From the NCBI GenBank assembly GCA_040753085.1, contig JBFMHI010000009.1:1-40909 (forward strand): a DNA stretch of 40,909 nucleotides, in the 5' to 3' direction. Under the pieces are notes generated by a model that did no database searches, was not told the DNA's origin, and was given only the letters and a program-made list of their open reading frames with translations. The translations under genes were made by a program, and so were the position numbers. Source of the stretch: a bacterium (lineage in GTDB: Bacteria > UBA9089 > JASEGY01). This document shows, piece by piece, positions 1,013 through 40,672 of this stretch (positions are counted from its first letter, which is position 1; each line of letters opens with the position of its first letter).

Positions 1013-1066
1013 TGATGCTGGATGCTGGATGCTCGAGCATCCAGCACCCAGCATCGAGCATCGAGT
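1013..1066. repeat. GATGCTG/GATGCTC heptamer array, palindromic
   Basis: Heptamers GATGCTG and GATGCTC repeat on the left and their complements (GAGCATC, CAGCATC) on the right, meeting at CTCGAG. The array can fold into one hairpin. It ends a few bases before the ribosome binding site of cysS, and if translated in the cysS frame would add a spurious N-terminal extension. Confidence 0.85.
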
Positions 1067-1085
1067 TGCGGCAGGAGGCCGCCCT

Positions 1086-2561
1086 ATGAACCAAGGACCA
1101 GGATTGAGGCTATATAATACCCTGACCGGACAAAAAGAGGAATTCATCCCACTTGATCCGCGGCTGGTCAAGATCTATGTCTGTGGGATTACGCCTTACG
1201 ATCATTGTCACCTGGGCCATGCCCGCTGTTATCTCACCTTTGATCTACTGAGACGATACATAGAGCATCTTGGTTACAACCTTCTTTATGTTCAGAACCT
1301 GACGGATGTAGATGACAAGATTATTGAGCGGGCTAATGAAATGGGGGTGCCTATTCAGGAACTGACCCGAAAGTATATTAAGGAATACTTCCGGGTGATG
1401 GAGGCCTTAAATATCAAGCCGGCTTCCATCTATCCCAGGGCTACCGAGCATATTCCTGAGATGAAAGAAGGTATATCCAGGCTTATTGAAAAGGGGTATG
1501 CTTATCAAGCCGGGGGCGATGTCTTTTTTGAGGTATCAAAACTCGATGGCTATGGCTGTCTGAGCGGCCGGAATCCGGAAGAGATAAACAGCCTTGGGGC
1601 AAGGTTAGAACTAAACCCGGAAAAGCGTAATCAGGCTGATTTTACCCTGTGGAAGAAAAGTAAAGAGGGTGAGCCTAAGTGGGATAGCCCCTGGGGAGCC
1701 GGACGTCCTGGCTGGCATACTGAATGTGTGGTTATGTCCACCAAATATTTAGGGGAGGAGTTTGATATCCATGGCGGAGGGGCAGACCTGATCTTTCCCC
1801 ATCACGAAAATGAGATAGCCCAGGTCAGGGGATTGACCGGTAAATCCCTGGCCAGATATTGGCTGCACAACGGTTTTTTAACTTATGAAGAGGAAAAAAT
1901 GTCCAAGTCCCTGGGCAATGTTGTCTTATTGAAGGATCTTTTAGAAACCTATTCCGCAGATATTCTCCGACTCTTCTTTTTTAATGCCCACTATCGAAGT
2001 CCCCTTAGTTTCACTCTGGACAAGCTGGACCAGGCAGCGAAGGCTTTGGACCGTCTGAGGGGGGCTTTGACCAATATCAGCCACTGCCTTAGTGAGACAG
2101 CGGGAGATACATCTGAGGCCGCCGTCCCGGCATTATCTTTCGATGAACTCTCTAAGGAAGAAAGCGAGTTTTATCAACAGACGGAGAAAAGCCAACAGGA
2201 CTTTGAATCTGCTCTGGCTGATGACCTCCATACCCCCAAAGCTCTATCCGTCATCTTTGACTTAGTAGCGGCGGTCAATCAGTTCCTTGTCCTTCCGATG
2301 ACACCTCTTCGGAAGAGATTACTGAAGAAGGCCAGGGATAAGATTGAAGAAGCCAAAGGCGTGCTGGGACTTTCTCGGGGAGAAAAGGATTATCAGAAGG
2401 AGGTGCTGGGGCAGGATTTGCTGCCACTCCTTATTCATCTGCGAGAAAAAGCCAGACAGAGGCGAGACTGGGCAGAAGCCGATTGGATAAGAGAGGAGCT
2501 GGGCAAGTTGGGTATTATTCTCGAAGATCTGCCCGGCGGGACACGATGGAAGAACCGGTAG
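1086..2561 (+). CDS. cysS: Cysteinyl-tRNA synthetase
   Basis: This cytosolic class I synthetase charges tRNA-Cys. The 491-residue length is typical. The catalytic domain shows the family start YVCGITPYD with the zinc-binding Cys33, the HIGH variant HLGH (residues 42-45), the zinc-site segments WHTECVVMS and HHENE near residues 210-245, and KMSKSLGN near residue 270; the C-terminal DALR-like and anticodon domains follow. I place the start at ATG 1086 because GGCAGGAGG lies 7-8 bases upstream; an in-frame ATG at 1029 would only translate the heptamer array. cobD overlaps its 3' end by 16 bases, so the two are probably translationally coupled. Confidence 0.96.
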   Translation: MNQGPGLRLYNTLTGQKEEFIPLDPRLVKIYVCGITPYDHCHLGHARCYLTFDLLRRYIEHLGYNLLYVQNLTDVDDKIIERANEMGVPIQELTRKYIKEYFRVMEALNIKPASIYPRATEHIPEMKEGISRLIEKGYAYQAGGDVFFEVSKLDGYGCLSGRNPEEINSLGARLELNPEKRNQADFTLWKKSKEGEPKWDSPWGAGRPGWHTECVVMSTKYLGEEFDIHGGGADLIFPHHENEIAQVRGLTGKSLARYWLHNGFLTYEEEKMSKSLGNVVLLKDLLETYSADILRLFFFNAHYRSPLSFTLDKLDQAAKALDRLRGALTNISHCLSETAGDTSEAAVPALSFDELSKEESEFYQQTEKSQQDFESALADDLHTPKALSVIFDLVAAVNQFLVLPMTPLRKRLLKKARDKIEEAKGVLGLSRGEKDYQKEVLGQDLLPLLIHLREKARQRRDWAEADWIREELGKLGIILEDLPGGTRWKNR

Positions 2562-4146: not shown

Positions 4147-4266
4147 GTAACTACTCAGGTTGTTTAGACTGAAGGCTGAAGGCTGAAGGCTGTCCCTAAA
4201 AGCCTTCCACCTTCAGCCTTCAGCCTTCAGCCTAAAAGCCTTCAGCCTATCTACCTGAGTAGTTAC
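4147..4266. mobile_element. TIR-bounded non-coding element, GTAACTACTCAGG type, copy 1
   Basis: The ends GTAACTACTCAGGT (4147-4160) and ACCTGAGTAGTTAC (4253-4266) are a perfect 14-bp terminal inverted repeat. The interior is a palindromic array of the heptamer GGCTGAA and its complement. Related copies are at 20180-20250 and 23585-23657. It has no ORF; if mobile it would need a transposase encoded elsewhere. Confidence 0.7.
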
Positions 4267-5189: not shown

Positions 5190-6158
5190 TTACCGCTGAT
5201 AAGAAGCCACTAACAGTATATCGTTTTCCCTGGCTACCTCAGACGCGGTGGGATGGATGTAGTAACCAAACATCACCTTAATTACCGGCTTCTGTAGGCT
5301 TTGTTCTACCAGAATAGCCTGTTTAGCAAAATCAGCCGCTTCTCTGCCATATATCCTTGATTTGCTCTCTCCCAGAATAATTACCTCTTCTCCATCCTCA
5401 CGCTTCCCTTCACCATAAAGGTCTATCTCAACTTCTTTACTGTCCACGACAAAGAACTTCCTGGTCAATTCTTCGACAAAGATATGGAGGTGTCTTTCCA
5501 GATAACCGGGCAACACCAGGCGGGCAATATCTTCCAATCCAAAACCTATGTTGTCGGACAACCTACCTACATTGACTGATAGGGCCGCCAGCGCTTCTTC
5601 TGTTTTTTTCTGAGCCTGAGCCAGTTCTTCTATGGCTTGCTCCACCCTGGTCAACCTCTCTTCCGAGGCTTTTTGGGCCTGAGCAAGCTCTTGTATGGCT
5701 TGCTCCACCCTGGTCAACCTCTCTTCCGAGGCTTTTTGGGCCTGAGCAAGCTCTTGTATGGCTTGCTCCACCCTGGTCAACCTCTCTTCCGAGGCTTTTT
5801 GGGCCTGAGCAAGCTCTTGTATGATTTGCTCCACCCTCGTCAACCTGTCTTCCGAGGCCTTCTGAGCCTGAGCAAGCTCTTCGACTCTTTCTTCCGTTCT
5901 TTGCTGGGCCTGAGCAAGTTTTTCTATGGCTTGCTCCACCCTGGTCAACCTGTCCTCCGAGGCTTTCTGGGCCTGAGCAAGTTTTTCAATGGCTCGCTCC
6001 ACCCCGGTTAACCTGCCTTCCGCGGCTTTCTGGGCCTGAGCCAGCTCAGCTACAATTCCTCTCAACTCACTGAAATCCTGGCGAATAATATCACTTTTTT
6101 CAACCCGCTCATCAACTATTTTCACCACAAGATCATACAGCTCGGCTGATATAGCCAT
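5190..6158 (-). CDS. Coiled-coil protein with C-terminal PD-(D/E)XK-like nuclease domain
   Basis: The 322-residue protein has a short N-terminal helix, then about residues 35-195 of 21-residue repeats of the form LAQAQKASEERLTRVEQAI, three heptads each, giving a long coiled coil. The C-terminal ~110 residues contain VEIDLYGEGKRE, then EEVIILGESKSRIYG, which fits the D...E-x-K core of PD-(D/E)XK nucleases (DUF3782-like proteins have this build). A second protein of the same plan is at 13548-14231. Function is unknown; a DNA-end or structure-specific nuclease held by a coiled-coil rod is a guess. ATG 6158 follows GGAGGCG. It sits between dapA and dapB in a biosynthetic operon with no evident link to lysine. 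Confidence 0.7.
   Translation of the reverse strand: MAISAELYDLVVKIVDERVEKSDIIRQDFSELRGIVAELAQAQKAAEGRLTGVERAIEKLAQAQKASEDRLTRVEQAIEKLAQAQQRTEERVEELAQAQKASEDRLTRVEQIIQELAQAQKASEERLTRVEQAIQELAQAQKASEERLTRVEQAIQELAQAQKASEERLTRVEQAIEELAQAQKKTEEALAALSVNVGRLSDNIGFGLEDIARLVLPGYLERHLHIFVEELTRKFFVVDSKEVEIDLYGEGKREDGEEVIILGESKSRIYGREAADFAKQAILVEQSLQKPVIKVMFGYYIHPTASEVARENDILLVASYQR
5635..5823 (-). repeat. Three identical 63-bp tandem repeats inside the coiled-coil gene
   Basis: Units 5635-5697, 5698-5760 and 5761-5823 appear identical base for base, each encoding 21 residues (three coiled-coil heptads). Flanking units at 5824-5886, 5929-5991 and 5992-6054 are diverged, and 5887-5928 is a 42-bp short unit. 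Base-level identity suggests recent expansion by slippage or recombination, so rod length likely varies between strains. Confidence 0.9.
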
Positions 6159-9888: not shown

Positions 9889-10005
9889 CTCGATGCTCGA
9901 TGCTCGATGCTCGAGCATCCAGCCTCGAGCATCCAGCATCCAGCATCCAGCCTCGAGCATCGAGCATCCAGCCTCGAGCATCCAGCATCCAGCCTCGAGC
10001 ATCGA
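9889..10005. repeat. GATGCTC heptamer array in the leader of the dap operon
   Basis: About 117 bases of GATGCTC on the left and of CGAGCATC/CCAGCATC-type units on the right. It lies between the promoter at 10024-10052 and the lipoprotein start, so it would be transcribed into the 5' leader and fold into a hairpin. Confidence 0.9.
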
Positions 10006-11245: not shown

Positions 11246-11947
11246 TTGTCCCGATTGAAGAAAAGATTGGAGGAAGTCAAGGCTCGTATCTTTAGAGCCG
11301 CCGAAAGAAGTAGTCGCGACCCCTCCCGAATTAAGTTGGTAGCTGTAACCAAACAGGTTGAAGTAGACACAATTAGAGAGGCTATTTCGGCCGGGGTGAC
11401 CATCATCGGTGAAAGTCGTGTCCAGGAGGCAAGCAGAAAGTATGATCAGATGGGGCGTGCTGGTCTGGCCTGGCATTTAGTAGGCCATTTACAGACGAAC
11501 AAGGTTAAGCGTGCCCTGGAAATATTTAATTTTATCCATTCGGTGGACCGGCTCTCTTTGGCTGAGGAGATCGATCGCCGCGCCCGTCAGGAGGGCAAGG
11601 TAGTTCCGGTTCTTATTCAGGTGAATGTAGCGGCTAAGGAGAGCCAATTCGGCCTATTGGAAGATCAGCTTTTTCCTCTCCTCTCCAAGATAGATGGTCT
11701 GGAACATCTCCAGATCGAGGGCCTGATGACTATCGCCCCCCTGACCACTGATCCGGAAGAGGCACGACCTTATTTTAGACGCCTTCGAGAAATAGCTGAA
11801 GAGGTTAAGCATCGGACCTGGAAGTCAATCAAGATGAAATACCTTTCTATGGGGATGAGTAATGATTTTGAAGTGGCCATCGAGGAGGGGGCTAATATGG
11901 TCCGAATCGGTTCGGCTATCTTTGGAGGTTGGAGCTATCGAGGATAA
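11246..11947 (+). CDS. yggS: YggS/PLPBP family PLP-binding homeostasis protein
   Basis: PLPBP proteins hold PLP and affect vitamin B6 and amino/keto-acid balance; no catalytic activity is established. The 233-residue TIM barrel has the PLP lysine at about Lys36 in LVAVTKQV, GESRVQEA, WHLVGHLQTNK, and the C-terminal LSMGMSNDFEVAI and VRIGSAIFG that hold the phosphate. I choose TTG 11246 because GGGAGA lies 8-9 bases upstream and the length then fits the family; GTG 11225 and ATG 11147 would extend into the upstream element. yggS-proC-yggT-DUF167 is a classic order. The heptamer array begins right at its stop. Confidence 0.92.
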   Translation: MSRLKKRLEEVKARIFRAAERSSRDPSRIKLVAVTKQVEVDTIREAISAGVTIIGESRVQEASRKYDQMGRAGLAWHLVGHLQTNKVKRALEIFNFIHSVDRLSLAEEIDRRARQEGKVVPVLIQVNVAAKESQFGLLEDQLFPLLSKIDGLEHLQIEGLMTIAPLTTDPEEARPYFRRLREIAEEVKHRTWKSIKMKYLSMGMSNDFEVAIEEGANMVRIGSAIFGGWSYRG

Positions 11948-12051
11948 ATTGCGAATTGCGAATTGCGAATTGCGAATCGCGAATCTATTTTTTAAAATCC
12001 GCAATTCGCAATCCGCGATTCTCAATTCGCAATCCGCGATTCGCGATAAGG
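11946..12051. repeat. GCGAATT heptamer array, palindromic, between yggS and proC
   Basis: Tandem GCGAATT units run left to right, then a TATTTTTTAAAA centre, then complementary AATTCGC/AATCCGC units. Folding gives a long hairpin with an A/T loop. The same layout with the same loop occurs at 29013-29078 and, split by an insertion, at 34834-35130. Confidence 0.85.
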
Positions 12052-14242: not shown

Positions 14243-16975
14243 ATGAACTATCAAGACACATTAAATCTACCTAAAACAGATTTTCTTATGCGGGCTAAGC
14301 TGCCCCAGCGGGAGCCGGAGATGGTTAAATCATGGGAAGAAAAGGATATCTATGCCCTTCTGAGAGAAGCCGGGCAGGGTAAGCCAAAATATATCCTCCA
14401 TGATGGTCCGCCTTATGCCAACGGCGATATCCATATGGGACACGCTTTAAATAAGATATTGAAAGACATCATCGTCAAGTATAAGTCAATGTTCGGTTTT
14501 GATTCCCCTTATATTCCCGGTTGGGATTGCCACGGTCTGCCTATCGAATACAAGGTGATGCAAATCTTAAAGGATAGAAAAGACTTAACTCAAGCTGAGA
14601 TTAGAACCGAATGTGAGAAGTATGCCAGACACTATGTGGATGTCCAGCGGGATCAATTCAAGCGGTTGGGTGTTTTTGGCGATTGGGACCATCCCTATCT
14701 TACCCTCACGCCTGATTACTGCGCCACGATTATTGAGGCCTTTGGAGAGCTGGTCAAACGAGGCCACATCTATCGCGGGTTGAAGCCGGTTCACTGGTGC
14801 AGTTCCTGTCAGACAGCCCTGGCCGAGGCCGAGGTAGAATATAAAGATAAATCTTCACCCTCCATTTACGTCCGATTTCCTTTGAAAGAGGCCGTAGGAG
14901 GAGCGGAAGCCGATGTCCTTATCTGGACAACCACCCCCTGGACCCTGCCGGCTAATGTGGCTATTGCTCTCCACCCGGCCTTTACGTATGCCCTGGTCGA
15001 AACGGATGGCCGCAGATTAATAATAGCTGAGGCCCGGGTCAAACCCGTAATGGAGGAGATGGGCCTCAAGGATTATCAAATCAGACAGACTATGTCCGGT
15101 AGTGAACTGGAAGGGAAAGAAGCCCTTCACCCCTTTATGAAGAGGGATTCCCGGATTATCCTGGGTGAATACGTGACGATGGATCAAGGGAGCGGGTGTG
15201 TCCATATCGCCCCGGGACACGGCCTGGATGACTATGAGGCCGGCCTGGCTTACCACCTGCCCATCATTACCCCAGTGGATGATAAGGGCTGCTTTACCTC
15301 CGAGGCAGGAGAATTTGCCGGTCAGGAGGTCTTTTCAGCCAACAGGGCCATTATTAAGCGTTTAACTGATGATGGTTATTTGCTTTACGCCACGGCTATC
15401 ATCCACTCCTATCCGCACTGCTGGCGGTGCAAAAGGCCCATTGTCTTCAGGGCTACCAGGCAGTGGTTTATTGACTTAGAGAAAAATGATCTTCGAGCTA
15501 AGGCGCTGGAGGAAACCCGGCGGGTGAAATGGATCCCGGTCTGGGGGGAGAGCAGGTTCTACAATACTATCAGGAGTAGACCTGATTGGTGCATCTCCAG
15601 ACAAAGGGCCTGGGGTGTGCCTATCCCGGCTTTTCACTGCTCAAGTTGTGGGAACCACCTGCTCCTGCCGGAAACTATCGAAAAGATAAAAGAAAAAGTC
15701 GCTCAAGAAGGCATTGAGGTGTGGTTTTCAGAAGACTTGACCGAGCTTATCCCCCCCGAGACTTCGTGCAGTGCCTGCGGTGGGCAGGAATTTGTCCAGG
15801 AGACCGATATCCTGGATGTCTGGTTTGAATCAGGGGTGAGCCACTTAGCTGTTTTCAGCCCTGATTCCGGCCTCCCCTGGCCGGCAGACCTATACCTGGA
15901 GGGAAGTGACCAGCATCGTGGCTGGTTTCAATCTTCAATGCTGACCTCGGTCGGCATAGGCAAGTCGGCCCCTTACCGAGTGGTGCTCACTCACGGCTTT
16001 ATGTTGGATGAAAAAGGGAAGGCCATGAGCAAATCAGAAGGTAATGTCATCTCTCCAGAGGAGATTATTAGCCGCTACGGAGCCGATGTCTTACGGCTCT
16101 GGGTGGCCTCGGAGGATTATCGAGAGGATGTCCGTCTGGGAGAAGAGATCCTCAAGAGAATGATTGATGCCTACCGGAAGATTCGCAACACCTGTCGATT
16201 TATCCTGGGCAATCTTTATGATTTTGATCCTGATCGAGACATGGTTGAAATTGATTCTATGTTGGAGATAGACAGATGGATCTTGCACCGGTTGGCTAAT
16301 TTTATCCAGCAGTGTCAAAAGGCTTACGAAGACTTTGAATTTCACCGGCTGTATCACGCCCTGAATAATTTCTGTGTAGTTGATCTTTCTTCGCTTTATT
16401 TAGATATTATCAAAGACAGGCTTTATACCTATCCAGCCGATTCCAAAGGGCGTCGAGCCGCCCAAACCGCTATGTATGAAGTTTTGACCGGTCTGACCTC
16501 CTTGATGGCCCCGGTACTTAGTTTCACGGCTGAAGAGGTCTGGCAGCATCTGCCTCCGCAGAAGGATAGACCCGCCAGTGTTCATTTAAGCCGGATGCCG
16601 TCAGTGAAGGAAAAATATGTCACTGAAGAATTAGCCAAAAGATGGGAAAAGATTTTCAAGATAAGGGAAGAGGTCTCCCGTGGCATGGAAGAAGCCAGAA
16701 GAGCGGGAATAATCGGCAATTCCCTGGAAGCCAGGGTGACTTTAAGTGTGCCTGAGACTGAAGCTGAGCTTTTAGCCGCCTATGAAAAACAGTTGCCGGC
16801 TATATTTATTGTCTCTCAGGTTGAACTTAAGGCGGCGGAGAAGATAGAGGTAAAGGTAACCAAGGCTGAAGGGGTAAAATGTGAGCGTTGTTGGAACTAC
16901 AGTCCAACCGTAGGTGAAGATAAACAGCACCCGGGCTTATGCGCCCGGTGCCTAAAAGTTATCATAACCGTTTAG
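14243..16975 (+). CDS. ileS: Isoleucyl-tRNA synthetase
   Basis: Cytosolic class I synthetase for tRNA-Ile. The 910 residues show [16 protein letters not shown] (HIGH motif near residue 64), a CP1 editing domain with [13 protein letters not shown] near residue 228, GSDQHRGWF near 552, KAMSKSEGN near 593, an anticodon-binding domain and a C-terminal zinc finger (CERCW near 883 and CARC near 897). ATG 14243 follows TAGGAGAATA. No T-box leader is visible. The last codons GTT TAG are formed by the terminal inverted repeat of the element that starts at 16965 (GTAACCGTTCAG with C changed to T giving the stop). Confidence 0.97.
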
Positions 16976-17191
16976 CCACAGATGCACACAGATGAAACAC
17001 GGAAAATCCGTGAGCCGTGTCCGTGATTCGGGTCTGTCCTTAGGCTGTAGGGACAACCCTTGTGGTTGTCCGTCTACGGAACGGACAGGGATAAGCACGG
17101 ACATGGACAAGCCCTGTCCCTACAATTCCGCCTTCTGCCCTGTGTTACTTATCGGTGTTAATCCGTGTGTGCAGCTATACCTGAACGGTTA
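16965..17191. mobile_element. ~225-bp TIR element, GTAACCGTTCAG type, copy A
   Basis: Bounded by TAACCGTTTAG and CTGAACGGTTA, with an interior containing CACGGAAAATCCGTG, GTAGGGACA.../TGTCCCTAC and GGACAACCC palindromes. It is closely similar over its whole length to copies B (23653-23878), C (26711-26938) and D (34876-35096). There is no ORF. Copy A shares its left end with the ileS stop codon. Confidence 0.85.
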
Positions 17192-17286
17192 CAAGTTATA
17201 ATAGCCTGACTGCTCAGCCACCAAGCCACAAAGACACGGTGTCTTGGTGTCTGAGTACTCCAAAGTGGAAGTTGAGGTGAAATTAT

Positions 17287-17696: not shown

Positions 17697-17823
17697 GTAA
17701 CCGTTCAGCACATGATGCTGGATGCTCGATCCTCGATGCTCGATCCTCGATGCTGGTAAAGGATCCAGTATCCAGGATCGAGCATCGAGCATCGAGTTTG
17801 TGTCTTTGTGGCTGAACACTTAC
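17697..17823. mobile_element. TIR-bounded element carrying a GATGCTC heptamer array
   Basis: GTAACCGTTCAG (17697-17708) and CTGAACACTTAC (17812-17823) bound a palindromic array of GATGCTC units (17713-17796) and the flank TTGTGTCTTTGTGGC. A like element with the same inner flank is at 29320-29461. It lies between dksA and lspA. Confidence 0.7.
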
Positions 17824-19239: not shown

Positions 19240-19312
19240 GGTCATCGGTGCTCGGTGATCGGTGATAACCGGTAACCGCTTTCTACTCACCGATAACCTG
19301 ATAACCGATTAA
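19240..19312. repeat. TCGGTGA heptamer array
   Basis: ATCGGTG, CTCGGTG, ATCGGTG, ATAACCG heptamers on the left and ACTCACCGATAACC on the right form a hairpin between yicC and remA. An inverted relative is at 25097-25160. The array ends seven bases before the AAAGGAGG site of remA. Confidence 0.75.
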
Positions 19313-19566: not shown

Positions 19567-20187
19567 ATGACTAATCTCCTTCTGGTTATTTCCGCTCCCT
19601 CAGGGACAGGAAAAACCACTATTTGTGATCGACTTGTTTCTTCCTGTCCTGATTTAGCTTATTCTATTTCTTTCACTACCAGGTCACCCCGAGCTGGTGA
19701 AATAGAAGGTAAACATTACCAGTTTGTCTCGGAGGAAGGATTTAAGACCTTGATCAGGCAGGGTGAATTTGTGGAATGGGCTATGGTGCATGGGAATTAT
19801 TACGGGACTCCCAGAGGTCCTTTGGAAGAATCTTTAGCCAAAGGTAAAACCCTGGTTATGGATATAGATGTTCAGGGGGGTATTCAGATAAAAGAAAAGT
19901 ACAAAGAATCGGTCCTGATATTCATTATACCTCCTTCTCTGGAAGAACTTAAGCTACGGCTTAACCGTCGTAAAACCGAGGATAAAGAAACAATTACCAA
20001 ACGCCTTCGTGGAGCTCAAGAAGAGTTAAAGTATGCTTCCTGTTATGATTACTGTCTTATTAACCACCAGATTGATGAAACAGTGAACCAGCTAAAAGCA
20101 ATTATTGCAGCCGAAAAATGCAGGGTGAAACGGATGAGTTTTGATGTCTTCTGGCTATTAGAAAATAATGACTACTTAGGTAGATAG
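19567..20187 (+). CDS. gmk: Guanylate kinase
   Basis: Gmk phosphorylates GMP to GDP. The 206-residue enzyme has the P-loop SAPSGTGKTT (residues 9-18), the GMP-binding FTTRSPRAGEIEGKHYQFVS, DIDVQGG near residue 98 and the lid RLRGAQEE. ATG 19567 is two bases after remA. The last codons TAC TTA GGT AGA TAG coincide with the end of a GTAACTACTCAGG-type element (canonical CTACTCAGGTAGATAG), so the element contributes the C-terminus YLGR and the stop. Confidence 0.95.
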   Translation: MTNLLLVISAPSGTGKTTICDRLVSSCPDLAYSISFTTRSPRAGEIEGKHYQFVSEEGFKTLIRQGEFVEWAMVHGNYYGTPRGPLEESLAKGKTLVMDIDVQGGIQIKEKYKESVLIFIIPPSLEELKLRLNRRKTEDKETITKRLRGAQEELKYASCYDYCLINHQIDETVNQLKAIIAAEKCRVKRMSFDVFWLLENNDYLGR

Positions 20188-20250: not shown

Positions 20251-20273
20251 CGAAAGGGGTTAAGATAAAAGGT

Positions 20274-20471: not shown

Positions 20472-20480
20472 AAAGGGAGG

Positions 20481-21544: not shown

Positions 21545-21815
21545 TCGGATAGCGGATGGCAGAATTCGGGATTCGAATTGCAGAACGAGTAACCGTTCAG
21601 CCACAAAGCCACTGAGGCACAAAGAGAATAATGGAATAGCCCACGGATGACACGGATTTTGGCGGATTCTCACGGATTTTTTTAATAAATTTTTATCCGT
21701 GTCAATCCGTTTCATCCGTGCAATCCGTGTGCTATTATTTGTAATCTTTGTGCCTTAGTGGCTGAACGCTTACCAGAACAAAAAATCCGAAATCCGCTAT
21801 CTACAATCCGCTATC
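21545..21815. mobile_element. TIR element (21589-21773) lying inside a palindromic array
   Basis: GTAACCGTTCAGCCAC (from 21590) and GTGGCTGAACGCTTAC (to 21772) bound an interior of CACGGAT and ATCCGTG units. Outside it, ATAGCGGAT (about 21550-21558) on the left and ATCCGCTATC on the right (21790-21814) are complementary, so the element appears to have landed between the two arms of an older array. The flank 21816-21940 contains TTCTTCGTG heptamer-like units and no gene. Confidence 0.65.
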
Positions 21816-23584: not shown

Positions 23585-23657
23585 GTAATTACTCAGGTAG
23601 ATAGGCGGTAGGCATTTAGACCTTCGGCTTTCAGTCTAAACAATCTGAGTAGGTAAC
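23585..23657. mobile_element. GTAACTACTCAGG-type element, copy 3
   Basis: GTAATTACTCAG (23585-23596) and CTGAGTAGGTAAC (23645-23657) bound a shortened, diverged interior with TAGGCATTTAGACCTTC and CAGTCTAAACAATCTGAG. Its right end is fused to the left end of copy B, and another CTGAGTAGTTAC lies just after copy B at 23879-23890. Confidence 0.7.
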
Positions 23658-23878
23658 CGTTCAGGTATAGCTGCACGGATTAGCACGGATAAATAACACA
23701 GGACAGAAGGCGGAAGTGTAGGGACAGGGCTTGTCCCTGTCCGTGCTTGTCCATGTCCGTTCCGTAGACGGACAACCACAAGGGTTGTCCCTACAGCCTA
23801 AGGACAGACCCGAATCACGGACACGGCTCACGGATTTTCCGTGTTTTCATCTGTGTGCATCTGTGGCTGAACGGTTAC
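23653..23878. mobile_element. ~225-bp TIR element, copy B
   Basis: GTAACCGTTCAGG at the left and CTGAACGGTTAC at the right. It is in the opposite orientation to copies A and D. It sits between two CTGAGTAG(G/T)TAC ends, consistent with insertion into, or next to, a GTAACTACTCAG-type element. Confidence 0.85.
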
Positions 23879-23908
23879 CTGAGTAGTTACAGGGAAGGGA
23901 ATAACCCT

Positions 23909-24655: not shown

Positions 24656-24656
24656 C

Positions 24657-24780
24657 TTAAGTTTCGGGTTGCCACTTTCGAGTGGCAAGTTTTGAGGAGC
24701 AGGAAACGGGAAGCCTAATAAATCCGAAGCTCACCAATCCGAATGAACTCGAAACCCGAAACCCGAAACTCGAAACTTAA
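24657..24780. repeat. CGAAACC heptamer array between fabG and acpP
   Basis: AAGTTTCGGGTTG and CACTTTCGAGTGGCAAG on the left, CTCGAAACCCGAAACCCGAA (about 24748-24767) then ACTCGAAACTT on the right. The right arm is four heptamers; the left arm is a degenerate complement. It ends before the AGGGGGT site of acpP. Confidence 0.75.
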
Positions 24781-25096: not shown

Positions 25097-25160
25097 CTCA
25101 GGTAATCGGTGCTCGGTAATCAGGTTATCGGTGAGTGTGTGGAAAGCGGGTAACTACTCA
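25097..25160. repeat. TCGGTGA heptamer array, second copy
   Basis: CAGGTAATCGGTGCTCGGTA and GGTTATCGGTGAG, then GAAAGCGGGTAACTACTCA. It is the inverted counterpart of the array at 19240-19312, and ends in a GTAACTACTCA terminus. A third related stretch (GGTAATCGG/CCGATTAC) is at 25432-25462 directly before fabF. Confidence 0.65.
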
Positions 25161-25199
25161 AAACTAAGTTAAGCAGTTAGTTGGGAGACAAAGCAAAAT

Positions 25200-25325
25200 T
25201 CCCTCTCCCTTGATGGGAGAGGGATAGGGTGAGGGTGAAATGGGCGGGCAATATTATTACTCTTGCTAAAAACCTTAGAAAAAGAGCTACCACCCCCCTA
25301 ACCCCTCCCATCAAGGGAGGGGAAG
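25200..25325. repeat. CCCTCTCCC inverted-repeat element
   Basis: CCCTCTCCCTTGATGGGAGAGGG at the left and CCCCTCCCATCAAGGGAGGGG at the right, with AGGGTGAGGG inside, resemble the interior of the element at 11036-11201. Non-coding. The remainder of 25161-25199 and 25326-25431 shows only a weak TATAAT (25379-25384) without a convincing -35. Confidence 0.6.
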
Positions 25326-25471
25326 CTTTTATGCCGACGCTGTCGGTACAAAAGGAGATGAAACTTAACCCATAGCACTATAATCTGTAATGAGCTTACT
25401 TTTTTAACTTGATTTTGAGTAGATACGAAAGCGGTAATCGGTTATTACTGATTACCGATTACAGGATTATG

Positions 25472-26728
25472 ATGGATACAAAACGTCGGGTAGTAGTTAC
25501 TGGCCTGGGGGCGATTACGCCTCTGGGAAATACCGTGGAAGAATTTTGGGGTGGTCTTGTCAAGGGGATATCCGGTATAGGCCGGATTAGTCATTTTCCG
25601 GTTGATGAGTATTCTTCTAAGATCGCCGCTGAAGTAAAAGATTTTGACGCGGCGGTTTATATTGACTCCAAAGATATTAAGCGCACGGCCAGGTTCACTC
25701 AATTTGCCGTTGCCTCGGCTTCTCAGGCCATTGAAGATGCCAAGCTCGAGCTTGGCAGAGAGAACCCAGATCAAATCGGAGTATTGGTGGGTTCCGGCAT
25801 CGGGGGATTAGATGTAATTGAAGCCCAGCATAATGTTCTTCTTAACCGTGGGCCTCATCGTGTCTCACCTTTTCTTATCCCGATGCAGATTATTAATATG
25901 GCCTCGGGGATGATATCCATCTATTTTGGGCTAAAAGGGCCTAATTCGGCGGTAGTTACTGCCTGTGCTTCGGGGACAAATGCTATTGGTGATGCCTTTA
26001 GAATCATCCAGCGAGGAGAGGCCGAAGTAATGATTGCCGGCGGCACAGAGGCGGCTATTACCCCCCTGTCCTTTGCCGGCTTTTGTTCTGCCAGGGCCTT
26101 ATCCACCCGAAACAATGACCCTTCAGGCGCTTCTCGTCCCTTTGAGGGGGGTAGAGATGGCTTTGTAATGGGGGAAGGGGCCGGAATAGTCGTTCTGGAA
26201 TCCCTGGAACACGCTATTTCCAGGGGAGCTGAGATCTATGCCGAGGTGGTTGGTTACGGTATTTCCGGTGATGCCTATCATATGACCGCCCCTGCTCCCG
26301 AAGGAACAGGCGCAGTCAGGGCAATAAAAGCCGCCCTTAATGATGCTGGGATTGAGCCTCAGGAGGTGGATTACATTAATGCCCATGGGACATCAACCGT
26401 CCTGAATGACAAATACGAAACAATAGCCATCAAAAGTATTTTTGATCAGTGGGCTTATTCTTTGGCCATATCATCTACCAAATCTATGACCGGTCATCTC
26501 CTGGGGGCGGCTGGTGGAATAGAATTTATTGCCGCTGTTCTAACCGTTCAGCATGAACTTATTCCGCCAACTATTAATTACGAGACCCCTGACCCTGAAT
26601 GTGACCTTGATTATGTGCCGAATGAAGCTCGAAGAGCCAGGGTAAACGTGGCCTTGTCAAGCAGCTTTGGCTTTGGAGGACAAAACGCTATTCTGGCAGT
26701 TAGGAAATACGTAACCGTTCAGGTATAG
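25472..26728 (+). CDS. fabF: 3-oxoacyl-ACP synthase II
   Basis: FabF elongates acyl-ACP by condensation with malonyl-ACP. From ATG 25472 the protein is 418 residues, starting [15 protein letters not shown], with Cys165 in TACASG, His305 in NAHGTST and His342 in TGHLLGAAG, the Cys-His-His triad. AGGA lies 5 bases upstream of ATG 25472; ATG 25469 is too close. The family normally ends after [15 protein letters not shown]; here five more residues, VTVQV, and the stop TAG are read from GTAACCGTTCAGGTATAG, the left end of element copy C. Confidence 0.95.
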
Positions 26729-26938
26729 CTGCACGGATTAGCATGGATAAATAACACAGGACAGAAGGCGGAAGTGTAGGGACAGGGGGCTTGTCCCTGT
26801 CCGTGCTTGTCCATGTCCGTTCCGTAGACGGACAACCACAAGGGTTGTCCCTACAGCCCTAAGGACAGACCCGAATCACGGACACGGCTCACGGATTTTC
26901 CGTGTTTCATCTGTGTGCATCTGTGGCTGAACGGTTAC
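26711..26938. mobile_element. ~225-bp TIR element, copy C, overlapping the fabF 3' end
   Basis: GTAACCGTTCAGG (from 26711) to CTGAACGGTTAC (to 26938); nearly identical to copy B with small indels. Its first 18 bases serve as the last codons and stop of fabF, so insertion appears to have replaced or extended the native stop. Confidence 0.85.
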
Positions 26939-29012: not shown

Positions 29013-29078
29013 ATCGCGAATTGCGGATTGCGGATTAAAAAATAGATTGGCGATTCGCAATTCGCAATTCGCGATTAT
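29013..29078. repeat. GCGAATT heptamer array
   Basis: CGCGAATTGCGGATTGCGGA, then AAAAAATAG, then GGCGATTCGCAATTCGCAAT. Same arm and loop plan as the array at 11946-12051. It ends 17 bases before the zinc-ribbon gene. Confidence 0.85.
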
Positions 29079-29319: not shown

Positions 29320-29461
29320 GTAGCCGTTCAGCCACTAAGGCACAAAGACACAACCTCGATCCTCGATGCTCGATCCTGGATACTGGATCCTTTACCAGCA
29401 TCGAAGATCGAGCATCGAGCATCGAGCATCGAGCATCCAGCATCATGTGATGAACGGTTAC
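29320..29461. mobile_element. TIR-bounded element carrying a GATGCTC array
   Basis: GTAGCCGTTCAGCCAC at the left and ATGAACGGTTAC at the right; interior AGGCACAAAGACACAA then GATGCTCGATCC and GAGCATCGAGCATC units (29353-29444). Its relative is at 17697-17823. Confidence 0.7.
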
Positions 29462-29498: not shown

Positions 29499-30802
29499 AG
29501 AGAGTCCATATCATCACCTATGGTTGTCAGATGAATAAGAGCGATTCAGAGATGATGAACGGACTTCTAAGACAGAAAGGGTATTTACCTGCGGCGGCCA
29601 TAGAGGAAGCCGATCTTATTCTGGTCAATACTTGTAGTGTCAGGGCTCATGCCGAGTCCCGGGCTTTAGGCCGCCTGGGAGAATTAGCCCGCCTGAAACG
29701 TAAACGGCCTGATATTATCCTGGGGGTCTGTGGATGTATGGCCGAGCGCCAGAGAGATCATCTGCTCCAGAAAGCCCCTTACCTTGATTTTATTCTTGGT
29801 CCACGCCGTTTGGCTGAGCTTCCTGAAATAGTTGACTCAGTTAATAGTAGAAATAGCCCTCTCCTATGCACTGGCCCCGAAAGAGACCCCTCTCCCCCTT
29901 CTTTGCATCTTTCCCTTAGAGAAAACAACTTGAAGGCCTGGTTGCCCATAAGCCTTGGTTGTAATAATTTCTGTGCTTACTGCATAGTGCCGAGCTTGCG
30001 AGGTCCTTTAAAAAGCCGTGATTCCGGGGAGATTATTAAAGAAGCTGAATCCCTGGCGGAAAATGGCTACCGGGAAGTTACCCTTCTGGGACAAAATGTA
30101 AACGCTTACGGTCAGGATAGACCTGGAGAAATTGATTTTGCTGGGCTTTTAGAGCAGCTCAACGCGGTGGCGGGACTAAGCAGGATAAGATTTGCTACTT
30201 CTCATCCGAAGGATATCTCCTCCCGAGTAATAGATGCCTTAGCAGATTTGCCCAGCGTATGTGAGGCCCTTCATCTTCCCATTCAAGCCGGATCAAATAA
30301 TGTTCTCGCCCGGATGAAACGGGGTTATACGGTGGAGCGTTACCTGGAGATAATCTCCCAAATAAGGGAGAAGATACCTAAGATCGCTATCAGCACGGAT
30401 ATCATTGTGGGGTTCCCTGGAGAGACAGAGGATGATTTTGAAGCCACCCTGGCTTTAGTGGAGGAAGCAGGCTTTGATGGGGCCTTTACCTTCAAATATT
30501 CTCCCCGACCTGGCACGCCGGCGGCAGAAATGCCCGATCAAATTCCGGAGGAGGTAAGAAAGGCGCGACTCGACAGACTGATCAAGCTCCAAAATCGAAT
30601 CACCCAACAGAAGAACGAAGCCCTTATTGGCAGCGAGCAGGAGGTTTTAGTGGAGGGGAAGAACCCAAAAAGACCCGGTTTTTTGCTTGGCCGGACCAGG
30701 ACTGATAAGACCACCACCTTTGCCGGCCATGAAAGCCTGATTGGGCAGATAGTTAATGTTAATATTACTAAAGCTACTACCTGGTGTATTGGTGACTGGT
30801 AG
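29495..30802 (+). CDS. miaB: tRNA 2-methylthio-N6-isopentenyladenosine37 methylthiotransferase
   Basis: MiaB adds a methylthio group to i6A37 in tRNAs reading UNN codons. The 435 residues show the UPF0004 domain with Cys10 (YGCQMNKSDSE), Cys near 46 (NTCSVRAHAE) and Cys near 80 (CGCMAE) for one cluster, the radical-SAM CNNFCAYC (Cys156, 160, 163), and a TRAM domain ending VNVNITKATTW. The start TTG 29495 lies in a TAATTGA heptamer and has no ribosome binding site; no better start precedes the conserved N-terminus. Translation may thus be weak or its native start was lost. Confidence 0.95.
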   Translation: MKRVHIITYGCQMNKSDSEMMNGLLRQKGYLPAAAIEEADLILVNTCSVRAHAESRALGRLGELARLKRKRPDIILGVCGCMAERQRDHLLQKAPYLDFILGPRRLAELPEIVDSVNSRNSPLLCTGPERDPSPPSLHLSLRENNLKAWLPISLGCNNFCAYCIVPSLRGPLKSRDSGEIIKEAESLAENGYREVTLLGQNVNAYGQDRPGEIDFAGLLEQLNAVAGLSRIRFATSHPKDISSRVIDALADLPSVCEALHLPIQAGSNNVLARMKRGYTVERYLEIISQIREKIPKIAISTDIIVGFPGETEDDFEATLALVEEAGFDGAFTFKYSPRPGTPAAEMPDQIPEEVRKARLDRLIKLQNRITQQKNEALIGSEQEVLVEGKNPKRPGFLLGRTRTDKTTTFAGHESLIGQIVNVNITKATTWCIGDW

Positions 30803-31171
30803 TTACAAAATGACGCCCTGTGAAAATCCCAGGTTTTACTACTAAAGCTACTACTGGTGTATTGGTGACTGGTAGTTACAAAATGACGCCCTGTGAAAAT
30901 CCCAGGTTTTACTACTAAAGCTACTACCTGGTGTATTGGTGACTGGTAGTTACAAAATGACGCCCTGTGAAAATCCCAGGTTTTACTACTAAAGCTACTA
31001 CCTGGTGTATTGGGGACTGGTAGTTACAAAATGATGCCCTGTGAAAATCCCAGGTTTTACTACTAAAGCTACTACCTGGTGTATTGGTGACTGGTAGTTA
31101 CAAAATGATGCCCTGTGAAAATCCCAGGTTTTACTACTAAAGCTACTACCTGGTGTATTGGTGACTGGTAG
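30767..31171 (+). repeat. Five 73-74-bp tandem repeats copied from the miaB 3' end
   Basis: Units start at 30803, 30876, 30950, 31024 and 31098 and end at 31171. Each ends in the last 36 bases of miaB (ACTAAAGCTACTACC... to the TAG). The copies are nearly identical, so this is a recent expansion seeded by the gene end. CCAGGT and ACCTGG in each unit can form a hairpin. 31172-31295 adds GTCCACCGAGTCCACCGTCC like the array at 38638-38727. Confidence 0.9.
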
Positions 31172-31295: not shown

Positions 31296-32417
31296 TCAAA
31301 ACCTTCGGAAAAAGAGTATATCCGCCAGACCGGACATCTCTACCGCAAAGATAGCCCTGGAGAAGCGGCCGGCCGGGGCGTCAAACTTGCTTTCCATGCC
31401 TATCCGTTCCAGGGCATAAGGATCACTTGATCTATCTACCACCCCATAAACACTGGAACAAGCACAAATAAATCCCGCCTCTTTGACCATTTCCTTTACT
31501 TCTTCATTGAAATCACCAAAAGGATAGCAAAAAACAGCCACAGGTTTCCCCAATTTTTGCTCTATTTCTTCTTTGGAAGCCGTTATCTCATATCTGGCCT
31601 GTTTCGGATCTATCCTGGTTAAAGGAGGGTGAGTTAAGGTATGGGCCCCAAATTCAATCCCGCCGGTATCCATTTCAGCCACCTGTTCCCAGGAAACAGG
31701 CAGGCTACGTTCCCAATTTCCCTGCCGCCAATCTATTCGCTGGGAGAGATTATTAACAACGGCCTTGGCCTCTTTGTCATCTAATCTCTTTAGAAGACTC
31801 ATCAAGTTTTGGAGAAGCTCTATCCGTTGGCTGAAAGTCTCCAGCTTAGCCTGAGTAAGTATCTCCCTAACTTCTTTCGGATAGGCAGGATTAGCGGCTT
31901 CTTGATTTATCTCTGATAAACCGGCCCTTCTGACTATCTCCGCCAGTTCATCTCGCCAGGTAATAACTCTTGGTCCTGTATAGCTAGGATTGATGAAAAC
32001 AGTGGCCTTGGCTCCATACTCTTGGAGAATAGGATAAGCCAGGGTAAAGACATCTTCATAACCATCATCAAAGGTGATAACTACAGACAGAGGCGGCAGC
32101 CCACCCTCTCCTTTAAGGCAAGTGGCAGCTTCTTTTAAGGAGATAATTTGATGCCTTTGGGAAAGATAGCGAATCTGGCGCTCAAAATCTTTAACCCTTA
32201 CCCCAACCTCAAAAGGAAAAGCCTCTTCTCCTTTTTTGAAGTTACTTATCCGGTGGTACTTAAGGACAAAGACCTTTCTTTCTCGGCTTAGCCTGGAGTA
32301 TATAAATTGGAGAAGGAAAAGGGCCCCACTGTAAAAAAGGCAGGCGCTCCAGGTAATCTTGAATACGTCCCTTATCCACCGGCGGATGGCGGATGGCGGC
32401 TTGCGGATTAAATACAT
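31296..32417 (-). CDS. Polysaccharide deacetylase (NodB-type, CE4)
   Basis: The 373-residue protein has a membrane anchor (about residues 22-42), then a CE4 deacetylase domain: VITFDDGYED (near residue 113) with the metal Asp, GAHTLTHPPLT (near 280) with the metal histidines, and FCYPFGDFNEEV (near 320) with the catalytic segment. A long insert between the first two motifs is unusual. It would remove N-acetyl groups from a glycan at or outside the membrane. ATG 32417 is the only start; its first ~17 residues are encoded by a GGCGGAT heptamer array, so the native N-terminus may have been altered. Downstream of the PP-loop gene by 26 bases. Confidence 0.85.
   Translation of the reverse strand: MYLIRKPPSAIRRWIRDVFKITWSACLFYSGALFLLQFIYSRLSRERKVFVLKYHRISNFKKGEEAFPFEVGVRVKDFERQIRYLSQRHQIISLKEAATCLKGEGGLPPLSVVITFDDGYEDVFTLAYPILQEYGAKATVFINPSYTGPRVITWRDELAEIVRRAGLSEINQEAANPAYPKEVREILTQAKLETFSQRIELLQNLMSLLKRLDDKEAKAVVNNLSQRIDWRQGNWERSLPVSWEQVAEMDTGGIEFGAHTLTHPPLTRIDPKQARYEITASKEEIEQKLGKPVAVFCYPFGDFNEEVKEMVKEAGFICACSSVYGVVDRSSDPYALERIGMESKFDAPAGRFSRAIFAVEMSGLADILFFRRF
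32383..32410. repeat. GGCGGAT heptamer array inside the deacetylase 5' end
   Basis: GGCGGAT, GGCGGAT, GGCGGCT, TGCGGAT in tandem, read in the deacetylase frame on the minus strand. Confidence 0.75.
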
Positions 32418-34833: not shown

Positions 34834-35130
34834 TAATCGCGAATCGCGGATCGCGAATTGCGAATTAAAAAATAGGTAACCGTTCAGCCACAGATGCACA
34901 CAGATGAAACACGGAAAATCCGTGAGCCGTGTCCGTGATTAGGGTCTGTCCTTAGGCTGTAGGGACAACCCTTGTGGTTGTCCGTCTACGGAACGGACAT
35001 GGACAAGCACGGACAGGGACAAGCCCTGTCCCTACACTTCCGCCTTCTGTCCTGTGTTATTTATCCGTGCTAATTCGTGCATACCTGAACGGTTACAAAA
35101 ATAGATTCGAGATTCGCGATTAACGATTCA
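34834..35130. repeat. GCGAATT-type heptamer array split by element copy D
   Basis: ATCGCGAATCGCGGATCGCG...AATTAAAAAATAG (34834-34875) on the left and AAAAATAGATTCGAGATTCG...CGATTAACGATT (35097-35130) on the right are the two arms of one palindromic array. Copy D (34876-35096) lies exactly between them. Confidence 0.75.
34876..35096. mobile_element. ~225-bp TIR element, copy D
   Basis: GTAACCGTTCAGCCACAG (from 34876) and CTGAACGGTTAC (to 35096), interior as in copy A and same orientation. It is inserted in the loop of a GCGAATT array between rny and ymdB. Confidence 0.85.
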
Positions 35131-36711: not shown

Positions 36712-37022
36712 CTCCTTACCCTATAAAATTTTCTTTAAAATCAGCTCGTTCTATCTCGACAGTTAAAAGTTCTGGCTCAACGTGGATTCGAGAGGTAAAC
36801 GCCCTCAGGTATCAGGTGTCAGGCATCACTGGTTAGCTCACTGTTGACGGCTGACACCTGATACCTGAACACTTACAATATTACCCCACGAATTCACGTT
36901 GACCCAAAGTTCTACACAAGTCATTGGTATTGTGGGCTTTTGCAGGCCTGATCGCCTTTTGAGGCAAGCGCCTTATTTTGAAGGGGTTAGGCTTGGAAGC
37001 GCACGAGAACTTTTAACTCTCG
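36712..37022 (-). ncRNA. Structured 5' leader or small RNA upstream of rny
   Basis: From the predicted start near 37022, the RNA begins CTCGAGAGTTAAAAGTTCT and ends near 36757 with AGAACTTTTAACTGTCGAG, complementary in 18 of 19 positions. A second stem pairs GGTCAACGTGAATTCG (near 36895-36910) with CGAATCCACGTTGAGCC (near 36770-36787). Between them are small hairpins (CAAGC...GCTTG, GCCT-CAAA-AGGC, CACAA...TTGTG), and a CAGGTRT array is inserted in the second stem. An internal AGAACTTT competes for the 5' strand. It could be a long leader of rny, a 6S-like RNA (zapA-6S-rny order is known in deltaproteobacteria) or unrelated. Confidence 0.45.
36795..36876. mobile_element. CAGGTRT heptamer element in the rny leader
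   Basis: GTAAACGCCCTCAGGTATCA and CTGACACCTGATACCTGAAC-ACTTAC are inverted; heptamers CAGGTAT, CAGGTGT, CAGGCAT read in tandem. Its outer bases GTAA..TCAG/CTGAACACTTAC match the element class seen at 17697-17823. Confidence 0.7.
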
Positions 37023-38609: not shown

Positions 38610-38637
38610 CAAATCAGACGCTTTGGTAGACTCCACC

Positions 38638-38732
38638 GTCCACCTAGTCCACACCGTCCACCTAGTCCACATCGTCCACCTAGTCCACATCGTCCACCTA
38701 GTCCACACCGTCCACCTAGTCCACATCGTCCA
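38638..38732. repeat. 18-bp tandem repeats GTCCACCTAGTCCACAYC
   Basis: Five full units (38638-38727) of an 18-bp sequence, each two 9-bp halves GTCCACCTA and GTCCACATC/ACC. A hairpin GTCCATAGAC...GTCTATGGAC follows (38728-38757). Related bases occur at 31216-31250. This array has a 9-base, not 7-base, half-period. Confidence 0.85.
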
Positions 38733-38808
38733 TAGACAGCAGTTTGCCGTCTATGGACCGTGAACCGTGGACCGTCTTAGAGCGGCCGAAACCATAAACA
38801 AGGCCCAT

Positions 38809-40512
38809 TTACCAATCACCGCTTACCAATCGATCCAGAGAAAAGGTATTAAGAATATTAGCCGGCTCAAGCCAGCCCCGGCGGGCTACACCGACTCCAA
38901 ATCGCATCATTTCGAGTTGAGAGAGGGCGTGGCTGTCAGTCGAAATAGCCAATTTGACTCCAAGTTCTTTGGCCCGCCGGCAGTTTATATCGTCCAGGTC
39001 CAGGCGTTCGTGATAAGCGTTTATCTCGAGGACAGTGCCGGTCTTAGCCGCCCCTTTTATGACCTTCTCTATGTCCACGGCATATCCCTCCCGGGATGAG
39101 ATAAGCCGACCGGTAGGATGGGCAATAATATCTACGTGGGGGTTCTCCATCGCCCGGCAGATTCGCTCCGTCACATTGTGCTTGAATCCGGAATGGACGG
39201 CCGCCACTACTATATCAAATCCGGCAAGGATATCATCAGGGTAATCCAGGGTCCCATCGGCCCTTATGTCAACCTCTGTTCCAACCAGGAGCTTAAACCC
39301 TTTTAGTTGACTATTTATCCTGGCTATCTCTTCGGCCCGCTCCTTGAGCCGCTCTTCAGAAAGACCACCCGCATATCTGGCCAGAGGGGAATGATCGCAG
39401 AGGAGAATATATTCATAACCCATTTCCCGGCCTCTTTGGGCTATATCTGTCAGGGAAGAAAAACCATCACTGTATCGGGTGTGCACATGAAAATCACCCT
39501 TGATATCCTTAAGTTCGACTAAACCAGGCAGCCTATCTTCAAGGGCGGCTTCAATTTCGCCTCTATCTTCTCTAACCTCCGGCGGTATCCAGGGCAGCCC
39601 CAAGGTCTGGTAGACCTCTGACTCCTCAGCGCCGGCTATTTTCGTCTTTCCTTCAAAGACACCGTATTCGTTGATCTTAAGGCCTTTGGCCCTGGCCCTC
39701 TCCCGAAGTTTGATGTTATGTGCCTTGGAACCAGTGAAGTACTGACTGGCTGCTCCAAATGACCCGGCTTCAACTACCCTCAGATCAACCTGAACCCCTT
39801 CGTGGGTAATAATTGACCCCTTGGTCTGGCCAGCCGCCAGGACCTCCTCTACCTGAGGCAATTGGGTAAAAAACCGGACTATCTCCTCCCCTGACTCGCC
39901 GGACACCAGGATATCAATATCGCCTACTGTTTCTTTCATTCGTCTGAGGCTTCCGGCCGGTGAGACCCTGACCACTTCCTTCAGACCCTCCAGCTCGGAT
40001 ATTATCTCCTCTACCAGGGGCAGGGCCACGCCTAATAAAAGTCGCTCCTGGGATGTTTGATATAACTTTATCCCCCGACGGATATTATCTACCTTTTTCT
40101 CACCCATACCAGGAAGAGCCGCCAGGCTTCCGTCATTGACTACCTTTTTCAGGTCTTCCAGGTCCCTGACCCCAAGTTTGCGAAAGGCCATGGCCAGAGT
40201 TTTAGGCCCGAGATCCTGAATCTTCAAAAGATCCACCAGACCTTCAGGGATTTCCCGCTTAGCCTCTTCGTAAGTATTTATCTCACCGGTTGTAAGATAT
40301 TCTTCAATTCTTTCGGCGATGCCTTTCCCTATCCCCGGTATTTCAGTTAATCTCCCCTCCCTCCAGATCACCTCGATGTCTTCGGTCAGATCGCCAATGA
40401 CACGCACCACCTTTCGGTAGGCATTCACCTTAAATTGATTCTCACCCTTGATTTCCAGGATGTCACCCAACCGCTGAAGGATAGAGGCTACTGGTTGATT
40501 CTTTGTAATCAT
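38809..40512 (-). CDS. polX: DNA polymerase X family protein with PHP domain
   Basis: The 567-residue protein combines a PolX core (helix-hairpin-helix ITEIPGIGKGIAERI near residue 55 and ALPGMGEKKVDNI near 135, palm VGDIDILVSG with its aspartates near 197-199) and a C-terminal PHP domain from about 340 (DFHVHTRYSDG, CDHSP, DSHALS) with 3'-5' exonuclease/phosphatase residues. Bacterial PolX acts in gap repair. ATG 40512 has no strong ribosome binding site. A sigma-70 promoter lies at 40696-40724. Confidence 0.94.
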   Translation of the reverse strand: MITKNQPVASILQRLGDILEIKGENQFKVNAYRKVVRVIGDLTEDIEVIWREGRLTEIPGIGKGIAERIEEYLTTGEINTYEEAKREIPEGLVDLLKIQDLGPKTLAMAFRKLGVRDLEDLKKVVNDGSLAALPGMGEKKVDNIRRGIKLYQTSQERLLLGVALPLVEEIISELEGLKEVVRVSPAGSLRRMKETVGDIDILVSGESGEEIVRFFTQLPQVEEVLAAGQTKGSIITHEGVQVDLRVVEAGSFGAASQYFTGSKAHNIKLRERARAKGLKINEYGVFEGKTKIAGAEESEVYQTLGLPWIPPEVREDRGEIEAALEDRLPGLVELKDIKGDFHVHTRYSDGFSSLTDIAQRGREMGYEYILLCDHSPLARYAGGLSEERLKERAEEIARINSQLKGFKLLVGTEVDIRADGTLDYPDDILAGFDIVVAAVHSGFKHNVTERICRAMENPHVDIIAHPTGRLISSREGYAVDIEKVIKGAAKTGTVLEINAYHERLDLDDINCRRAKELGVKLAISTDSHALSQLEMMRFGVGVARRGWLEPANILNTFSLDRLVSGDW

Positions 40513-40593
40513 GGCATATTTCGGCCTGATTCATCGTTTCGGCCATTGTCTCAGTTTCGAGTTTCTGGTTTAGAAAAGGGCGAAATTCCTAAA

Positions 40594-40672
40594 CCGTTCA
40601 GGTAGTCTGGTGTCTTGGTGTCTGGTAGCCTGGTATTTATTAGACCACCAGGCACCAGACGACACCCTGTGT
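40594..40672. repeat. TCTGGTA heptamer array upstream of polX
   Basis: GTCTGGT, GTCTTGGT, GTCTGGT, AGCCTGGT then TTATTAGACC, CACCAGGCACCAGAC form a palindromic array that begins with AACCGTTCAGG, like the element ends. It would be transcribed from the promoter at 40696. Confidence 0.7.

Follow-up and report, generated by a model that had tools for sequence, protein, structure and literature searches.

Why do the spacers of one bacterial genome hold tandem heptamers of many different sequences in a single, foldable layout? The question arises from a 40,909-nucleotide stretch of DNA (the window), contig 9 of G000, a 3.05-Mb metagenome-assembled genome (MAG; 250 contigs, 97% complete), for which a first-pass annotation had reported unrelated heptamers in almost every spacer, most of them with complementary arms, and had suggested one shared mechanism. 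That annotation overlooked that many of these dyads are the stems of miniature transposons. We consider it probable that two overlapping processes are at work, one making heptamer arrays in 7-bp steps and one spreading them as foldback miniature inverted-repeat transposable elements (MITEs) moved by an IS66-type transposase. We analysed 1.216 Mb of G000, to which all genome-wide counts of runs, end pairs and spacers refer, within a comparison set of 19 species of one phylum (G000; one genus-mate, the sister species G001; and 17 others), and among the relatives we read ~190 kb of G001 and parts of G018, G013 and G007.

Period-seven arrays are concentrated between genes

Tracts of period seven were present in all eleven stretches named by the first-pass annotation, and 425 such runs were found in G000, compared with 23, 110 and 81 runs of periods 6, 8 and 9; the window alone holds 23, against 0-5 for each of periods 4-6 and 8-13. 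The resulting rate of 34.9 per 100 kb compares with 0.16 in composition-shuffled G000, so the signal is far stronger than in shuffled DNA, and with 4.8 in a 268-kb sample of 20 genomes from other phyla. Rates were 50.7 in G001 and 29 to 43 in G018 and G013, and may be inflated, as the parts read of G001, G018, G013 and G007 were picked partly for carrying elements. Period-seven bases amount to 50 per kb between genes and 5.3 per kb within them, and the arrays of G000 are thus heptanucleotide short tandemly repeated repetitive or simple sequence repeats in the accepted sense: tandem, chiefly intergenic and above chance. Their flanks are unique and mutually different, and arrays recur in the independently assembled sister and relative genomes.

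Several statements of the first-pass annotation need narrowing. Arrays occupy 162 of 555 spacers of at least 40 bp (29%), and 10 of 22 in the window, rather than almost every spacer, and the heptamers are not all unrelated, several being one base apart (GATGCTC/GATCCTC/GATACTC; GCGAATT/GCGGATT/GCGAATC). The palindromic layout holds for ten of the eleven stretches, which fold as DNA hairpins (z -3.5 to -11.6), but not for 24748-24780 taken alone (z -1.2), whose partner arm lies at about 24656-24672. Complementary arms are a feature of about a third of runs rather than of most (146 of 425 in detected dyads). Among adjacent similar runs, 75 pairs were inverted and 38 direct; permuting the units gave a mean of 14.8 inverted pairs (maximum 28, 300 trials) and random strand flips gave 57 +/- 5, so that the surplus of inverted neighbours is real but moderate.

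Many heptamer dyads form the stems of a miniature transposon family

Many dyads lie between one of two sets of inverted ends, GTAANCGTTCA...TGAACGNTTAC (family A) and GTAACTAYTCA...TGARTAGTTAC (family B). In G000, 179 such end pairs were found (at most 350 bp apart, at most one mismatch per end) and none with the reversed-pattern control; counts of ends by genome were 374, 200, 182 and 48, again with 0 for the control. An exact 8-bp duplication flanks 60 of the 179 pairs, no other length from 5 bp upwards being found more than twice, and the middle six bases of this duplication are 68-78% A+T. Allowing up to two end mismatches gave 78 elements with perfect duplications, none longer than 600 bp. 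A set of 100 elements measured 49-555 bp (median 197), with none longer that had perfect duplications in 1.2 Mb. Shared terminal inverted repeats, a duplication of fixed length, small size without a transposase of their own and the occurrence of filled and empty sites identify these elements as MITEs. They are also foldback elements, having inverted arms of tandem subrepeats in variable number; in 90 of the 100 elements the two halves have an inverted 8-mer in common.

These ends enclose 106 of the 425 period-seven runs (25%), where 16 would be expected at random. Runs of GATGCTC, the most frequent kind (53 of 106), and of GGCTGAA (17 of 36) are often enclosed, and the GCGAATT/GCGGATT classes hardly at all (1 of ~70). 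In G000, one miniature-transposon family carries dyads of GATGCTC, GGCTGAA and probably CAGGTAT. Interiors vary from copy to copy, comprising heptamers (GATGCTC, GGCTGAA), 8- and 9-mers (ACACAGAG, CACGGATGA) or unrelated sequence. We call a period-seven array or dyad 'naked' where family-A or family-B ends are lacking. The elements and dyads of the window are as follows, with strand given where assigned.

1013-1066: naked GATGCTS heptamer dyad; fold z -6.0
4147-4266: family-B miniature transposon, ends GTAACTACTCAGGT/ACCTGAGTAGTTAC, GGCTGAA stem; flanks CTTGTTCC/CCTCTTCC agree at 6/8; z -11.6
9889-10005: naked GATGCTC left arm with longer inverted right arm
11946-12051, minus strand: GCGRATY dyad with conserved loop TTTAAAAAATAGATT; sister species has a short period-7 tract only
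16964-17192: family-A miniature transposon without heptamers; target duplication 7/8 (AAGTTATC/AAGTTATA)
17697-17823, plus strand: family-A miniature transposon GTAACCGTTCA...TGAACACTTAC, GATGCTS arms, core TGGTAAAGGATCCAGTATCCAG
19240-19312: naked TCGGTGA dyad; sister spacer holds a TCTGGTG-like dyad
20168-20251: probable decayed family-B element of CAGTCTT/GGCTGAA units; right end CCTGAGTAGTTAC
20481-20554: naked GATGCTC dyad; z -7.5
21589-21773: family-A miniature transposon; duplication 7/8 (CAGAACGA/CAGAACAA)
23585-23890: family-B element hosting the nested element 23653-23878; same place occupied in sister species
23653-23878: family-A miniature transposon nested in 23585-23890; exact duplication CTGAGTAG
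24656-24773: CGAAACC-armed insertion of ~118 bp, edged on both sides by AACTTAA; sister species lacks the insertion and has AACTTAA once
25150-25426: family-B miniature transposon in the loop of a TAATCGG dyad; exact duplication GAAAGCGG
26711-26938: family-A miniature transposon; exact duplication GGAAATAC
29013-29078, plus strand: naked GCGRATY dyad, loop ATTAAAAAATAGATT
29320-29461, minus strand: family-A miniature transposon, GATGCTC arms; duplication 7/8 (AATAATTG/AATTATTG)
32381-32408, minus strand: GGCGGAT tandem overlapping the start of open reading frame (ORF) 31296-32417 (minus strand)
34834-35121, plus strand: GCGRATY dyad, loop split by element 34876-35096
34876-35096: family-A miniature transposon; duplication AAAAATAG, equal to the conserved loop of intact GCGRATY dyads
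36795-36876: CAGGTAT dyad, termini resembling transposon ends (GTAAACG.../...TGAACACTTAC), the left one degenerate; z -6.0

Two filled sites of the window can be paired with empty ones. Element 34876-35096 has inserted into the loop ATTAAAAAATAGATT of a GCGRATY dyad with duplication of AAAAATAG, and other dyads have an intact loop; element 23653-23878 has inserted into a family-B element with duplication of CTGAGTAG, and is missing from the sister-species copy. The idea that the elements generally prefer hairpin loops was rejected, as strong stems flank just 4 of 99 elements compared with 0.6-0.8% of controls, which is suggestive but few. A candidate autonomous element in G001 (C55, two ends 2.9 kb apart) proved to be two separate 185-bp elements around restriction-modification genes. 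In G018, elements with the same ends contain apparent host-gene fragments (L228 14502-14795, L231 17113-17444, L235 17506-17789) and so resemble Pack-type transposons; apparent gene fragments were also seen inside elements of G013.

Longer repeats occur in the window as well: a 74-bp tandem repeat (30766-31171; 5.5 copies, 98% alike) with ...GGTGACTGGTAGTTAC in its unit, a sequence that recalls the right end of family B; 63-bp repeats at 5607-6047 within ORF 5190-6158 (minus strand), encoding a repetitive protein; and an 18-bp tandem repeat, CACCGTCCACCTAGTCCA (38634-38732; 5.5 copies, 96% alike).

Arms change in 7-bp steps and interiors differ between sister species

One 22-bp core is common to 64 GATGCTC copies, of which 36 have both ends and 20 have neither. 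The left arm of the two-ended copies is 1 modulo 7 in 31 of 36 (36, 43, 50, 57, 64, 71, 78, 113 or 148 bp), and left and right arm lengths are uncorrelated among these 36 copies (0.06). As arm lengths differ by exact multiples of 7 bp, and do so independently on the two sides, heptamer units have been gained or lost after the element spread. Slippage or unequal recombination inside single arms would give such a pattern, and the lack of correlation between arms led us to reject copying from one arm to the other. The idea that seven reflects a polymerase footprint, quoted in earlier work (PMC4692102, PMC4679880), is compatible with these 7-bp steps.

In syntenic blocks, genes of G000 and G001 are ~75-87% identical, and the spacers have turned over almost wholly. 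GATGCTS has 398 matches in G000 and none in G001, where the main units are AATCCGC, AAATTGG and AACTTAC, and in the sister species the same ends that enclose GATGCTC in G000 surround different heptamers (AAATTAG/AAATTGG, GGTTCAA). Period-seven DNA is found in both species at 11946-12051, with a dyad in G000 only; at 19240-19312, both have a dyad built of differing units, and the G001 loop holds a family-A element with an AAATTAG/AAATTGG stem. The 118 bp at 24656-24773 form a clean insertion in G000 relative to the sister species; the AACTTAA on both sides may be a duplication of 7 bp, the same length as the array period. A separate palindromic family, whose ends resemble GGCCTTGNTCATYGTTTCGGCCATT, surrounds GCGRATY arrays in G000 and different 7-8-mers in G001; it was seen at L039 18926-19066, at L062 12349-12469 and in the spacer of G001 that corresponds to window 20115-20590.

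Tandem GATGCTC triples were matched in at least 118 contigs, which come from very many phyla; among the matches listed, none has family-A or family-B ends within 200-250 bp, and 4 of 118 contigs have inverted copies nearby. Since heptamer tandems are common in other phyla without these ends, making and spreading look like two processes: the making of heptamers is general in bacteria, and their spread as transposon stems is special to this lineage. Several of the triples (L108-L225) sit at contig ends, where assemblies break at arrays. In G034, of another phylum, L281 1104-1293 is a GGGACCA-type heptamer dyad (GGGACCAGGGACCA ... TCCCTGATCCCTG) with the same architecture far outside the phylum.

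A two-process explanation and the probable mover

Under the explanation that we favour, a heptamer seed in non-coding DNA would be amplified in whole 7-bp steps by replication slippage or unequal recombination, a step size that many bacteria share. Dyads that came to lie between GTAANCGTTCA or GTAACTAYTCA ends would then be copied as miniature inverted-repeat (foldback) transposons, each insertion duplicating 8 bp of AT-rich target, with an IS66-type transposase most likely supplied in trans. Selection for transposition would hold the ends while heptamers of the stem could be added, lost or altered freely, so that copies and sister species would share one architecture with different sequences.

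On the likeness of ends and duplications, we infer strongly that an IS66-type transposase is probably the mover. IS66 elements have ends starting GTAAGCG and 8-bp repeats (PMC11946415), and the elements of G000 have ends beginning GTAA and 8-bp duplications. IS66 transposases are present in 12 of the 19 genomes of the phylum. In G013 (L248 893-2455), an IS66 gene of full length with two interruptions is bounded on both sides by the same 15-bp end, GTAACCGTTCAGGTA; the right-hand copy lies 28 bp past the reading frame, and the left-hand copy is identical over 20 bases to that of a common 225-bp G000 element; in G007 (L270 9793-11006), a truncated IS66 gene lies between GTAACTATTCAGCA ends.

Several observations weigh against this explanation. 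IS66 transposase (PF03050) was found in neither G000 nor its genus-mate G001, and G000 is 97% complete, although multicopy genes can drop out in assembly; the IS66 C-terminal model is uninformative on absence, as it also missed the IS66-bearing G013. Both the L248 and the L270 IS66 gene show decay, and neither has 8-bp flanks that match. Near-matching ends are frequent in the genomes concerned: for 24% of randomly chosen positions, one lies no more than 340 bp downstream, so the single-ended IS66 cases L256 and L260 count for little. Slippage is deduced from arm lengths rather than directly seen, and alone cannot make inverted arms. Finally, 319 of 425 runs (~75%) lie outside these ends, including two dyad families with conserved loops; the single mechanism suggested at first is borne out for one vehicle and one step size, but most runs lie outside that vehicle.

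Alternative origins and the naked arrays

The naked runs, which include 14 GCGRATY dyads sharing the loop ATTAAAAAATAGATT and 20 naked GATGCTC cores, may reflect erosion of ends, a mobile unit of another kind or local growth. That naked dyads are miniature transposons whose ends have been lost is possible, if doubtful: 20 of the 64 core copies lack both ends yet retain core and arrays, and several spacers hold half-elements (for example, 20168-20251). However, naked cores tend to another variant (GTGTCCAG, not GTATCCAG), GCGRATY dyads never have these ends directly outside their arms, and flanking inverted repeats were found around only 9 of 217 naked clusters, no more than mismatched flanks give. 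It is rather unlikely that the end-less dyads (GCGRATY with loop ATTAAAAAATAGATT; naked GATGCTC with core GGTAAAGGATCCAGTGTCCAG) are mobile units in their own right, without a Y1 transposase or recognisable ends, with each species replacing its dominant heptamer genome-wide. A search for empty sites of naked arrays in G000 and the sister species gave 32 spanning matches for 217 clusters, nearly all too diverged to define edges.

Were all arrays ordinary simple repeats, born in place by polymerase slippage and folding by chance or under selection for hairpins, one would expect their wide occurrence: in many bacteria the long simple repeats most often found are heptamers, attributed to a polymerase footprint of ~7 nt (PMC4692102, PMC4679880), and the GATGCTC tandems of other phyla lack such ends and are rarely inverted among the matches listed. 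Yet 64 copies with one 22-bp core, 14 with the loop ATTAAAAAATAGATT and many target duplications are copies, not independent births. As a sole account this is therefore unlikely; it is contradicted for the copied families and may hold for single tandem arrays without a core. Selection for transcription terminators or regulatory RNA hairpins would suit the strong folding and mostly intergenic position, but convergent gene pairs are not favoured (22% compared with 30% for tandem and 32% for divergent pairs) and spacer occupants differ between sister species; lacking a convergent bias, a terminator function was rejected, and we regard this origin as very improbable. Movement of hairpins as single strands by a Y1 transposase (TnpA-REP), as in repetitive extragenic palindromic (REP) sequences with their REP-associated tyrosine transposases (RAYTs), is also quite improbable. 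Naked copies agree with it, being intergenic hairpins with conserved loops and showing no obvious duplication of the target, as do Y1 transposases in 10 of the 19 phylum genomes, one of them the genus-mate. However, no Y1 (HUH) gene was found in G000, which led us to reject a RAYT as mover there; period-seven arrays also occur in genomes without a detected Y1 gene (G000, G007); and end-bearing copies have clean 8-bp duplications. To our knowledge, Y1 enzymes make no such duplications.

Relation to known systems and implications

The elements that we interpret as MITEs probably moved by IS66 resemble IS66-family insertion sequences and MITEs derived from them in their GTAA-starting ends, 8-bp target duplications (PMC11946415) and short, transposase-less derivatives with shared ends. 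They differ in that G000 has no IS66 gene, in a foldback-stem interior, often of tandem 7-9-mers, that varies between copies and species, and in ends (GTAACYRYTCAG) with ~11-15 conserved bases rather than the 20-30 bp of the GTAAGCG type. Heptanucleotide repeats have been described in cyanobacteria, Xanthomonas/Nostoc, Beggiatoaceae and Geobacter metallireducens (PMC4692102, PMC4679880, PMC2700814), and like them the G000 arrays are many intergenic tandem copies, sometimes inverted; each genome in those reports has one or a few named heptamers, with no carrier element described, whereas G000 has dozens of related units, and a quarter of its runs lie inside a transposon with target duplications. 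Animal foldback transposons (FB, Galileo) likewise have long inverted ends of tandem subrepeats that expand and contract around a variable interior (PMC4168063). Unlike these, the present elements are bacterial and ~50-550 bp long, with 7-bp subrepeats (~140 bp in the described Galileo copy) and 8-bp duplications. The copies found in G000 are all non-autonomous, and no P-type transposase is known for these elements, none having been searched for. REP sequences and bacterial interspersed mosaic elements (BIMEs) with RAYTs are also dispersed intergenic hairpins, but G000 lacks a Y1 transposase and its end-bearing class has 8-bp duplications.

Seven-base tandem repeats in bacterial spacers have long been noted without agreement on their cause. 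For part of them, the elements described here provide a concrete carrier, a bacterial foldback transposon with a heptamer-built stem whose length shifts in 7-bp steps, and sister genomes allow its turnover to be measured. What makes heptamers is thereby separated from what spreads them, and both questions become testable.

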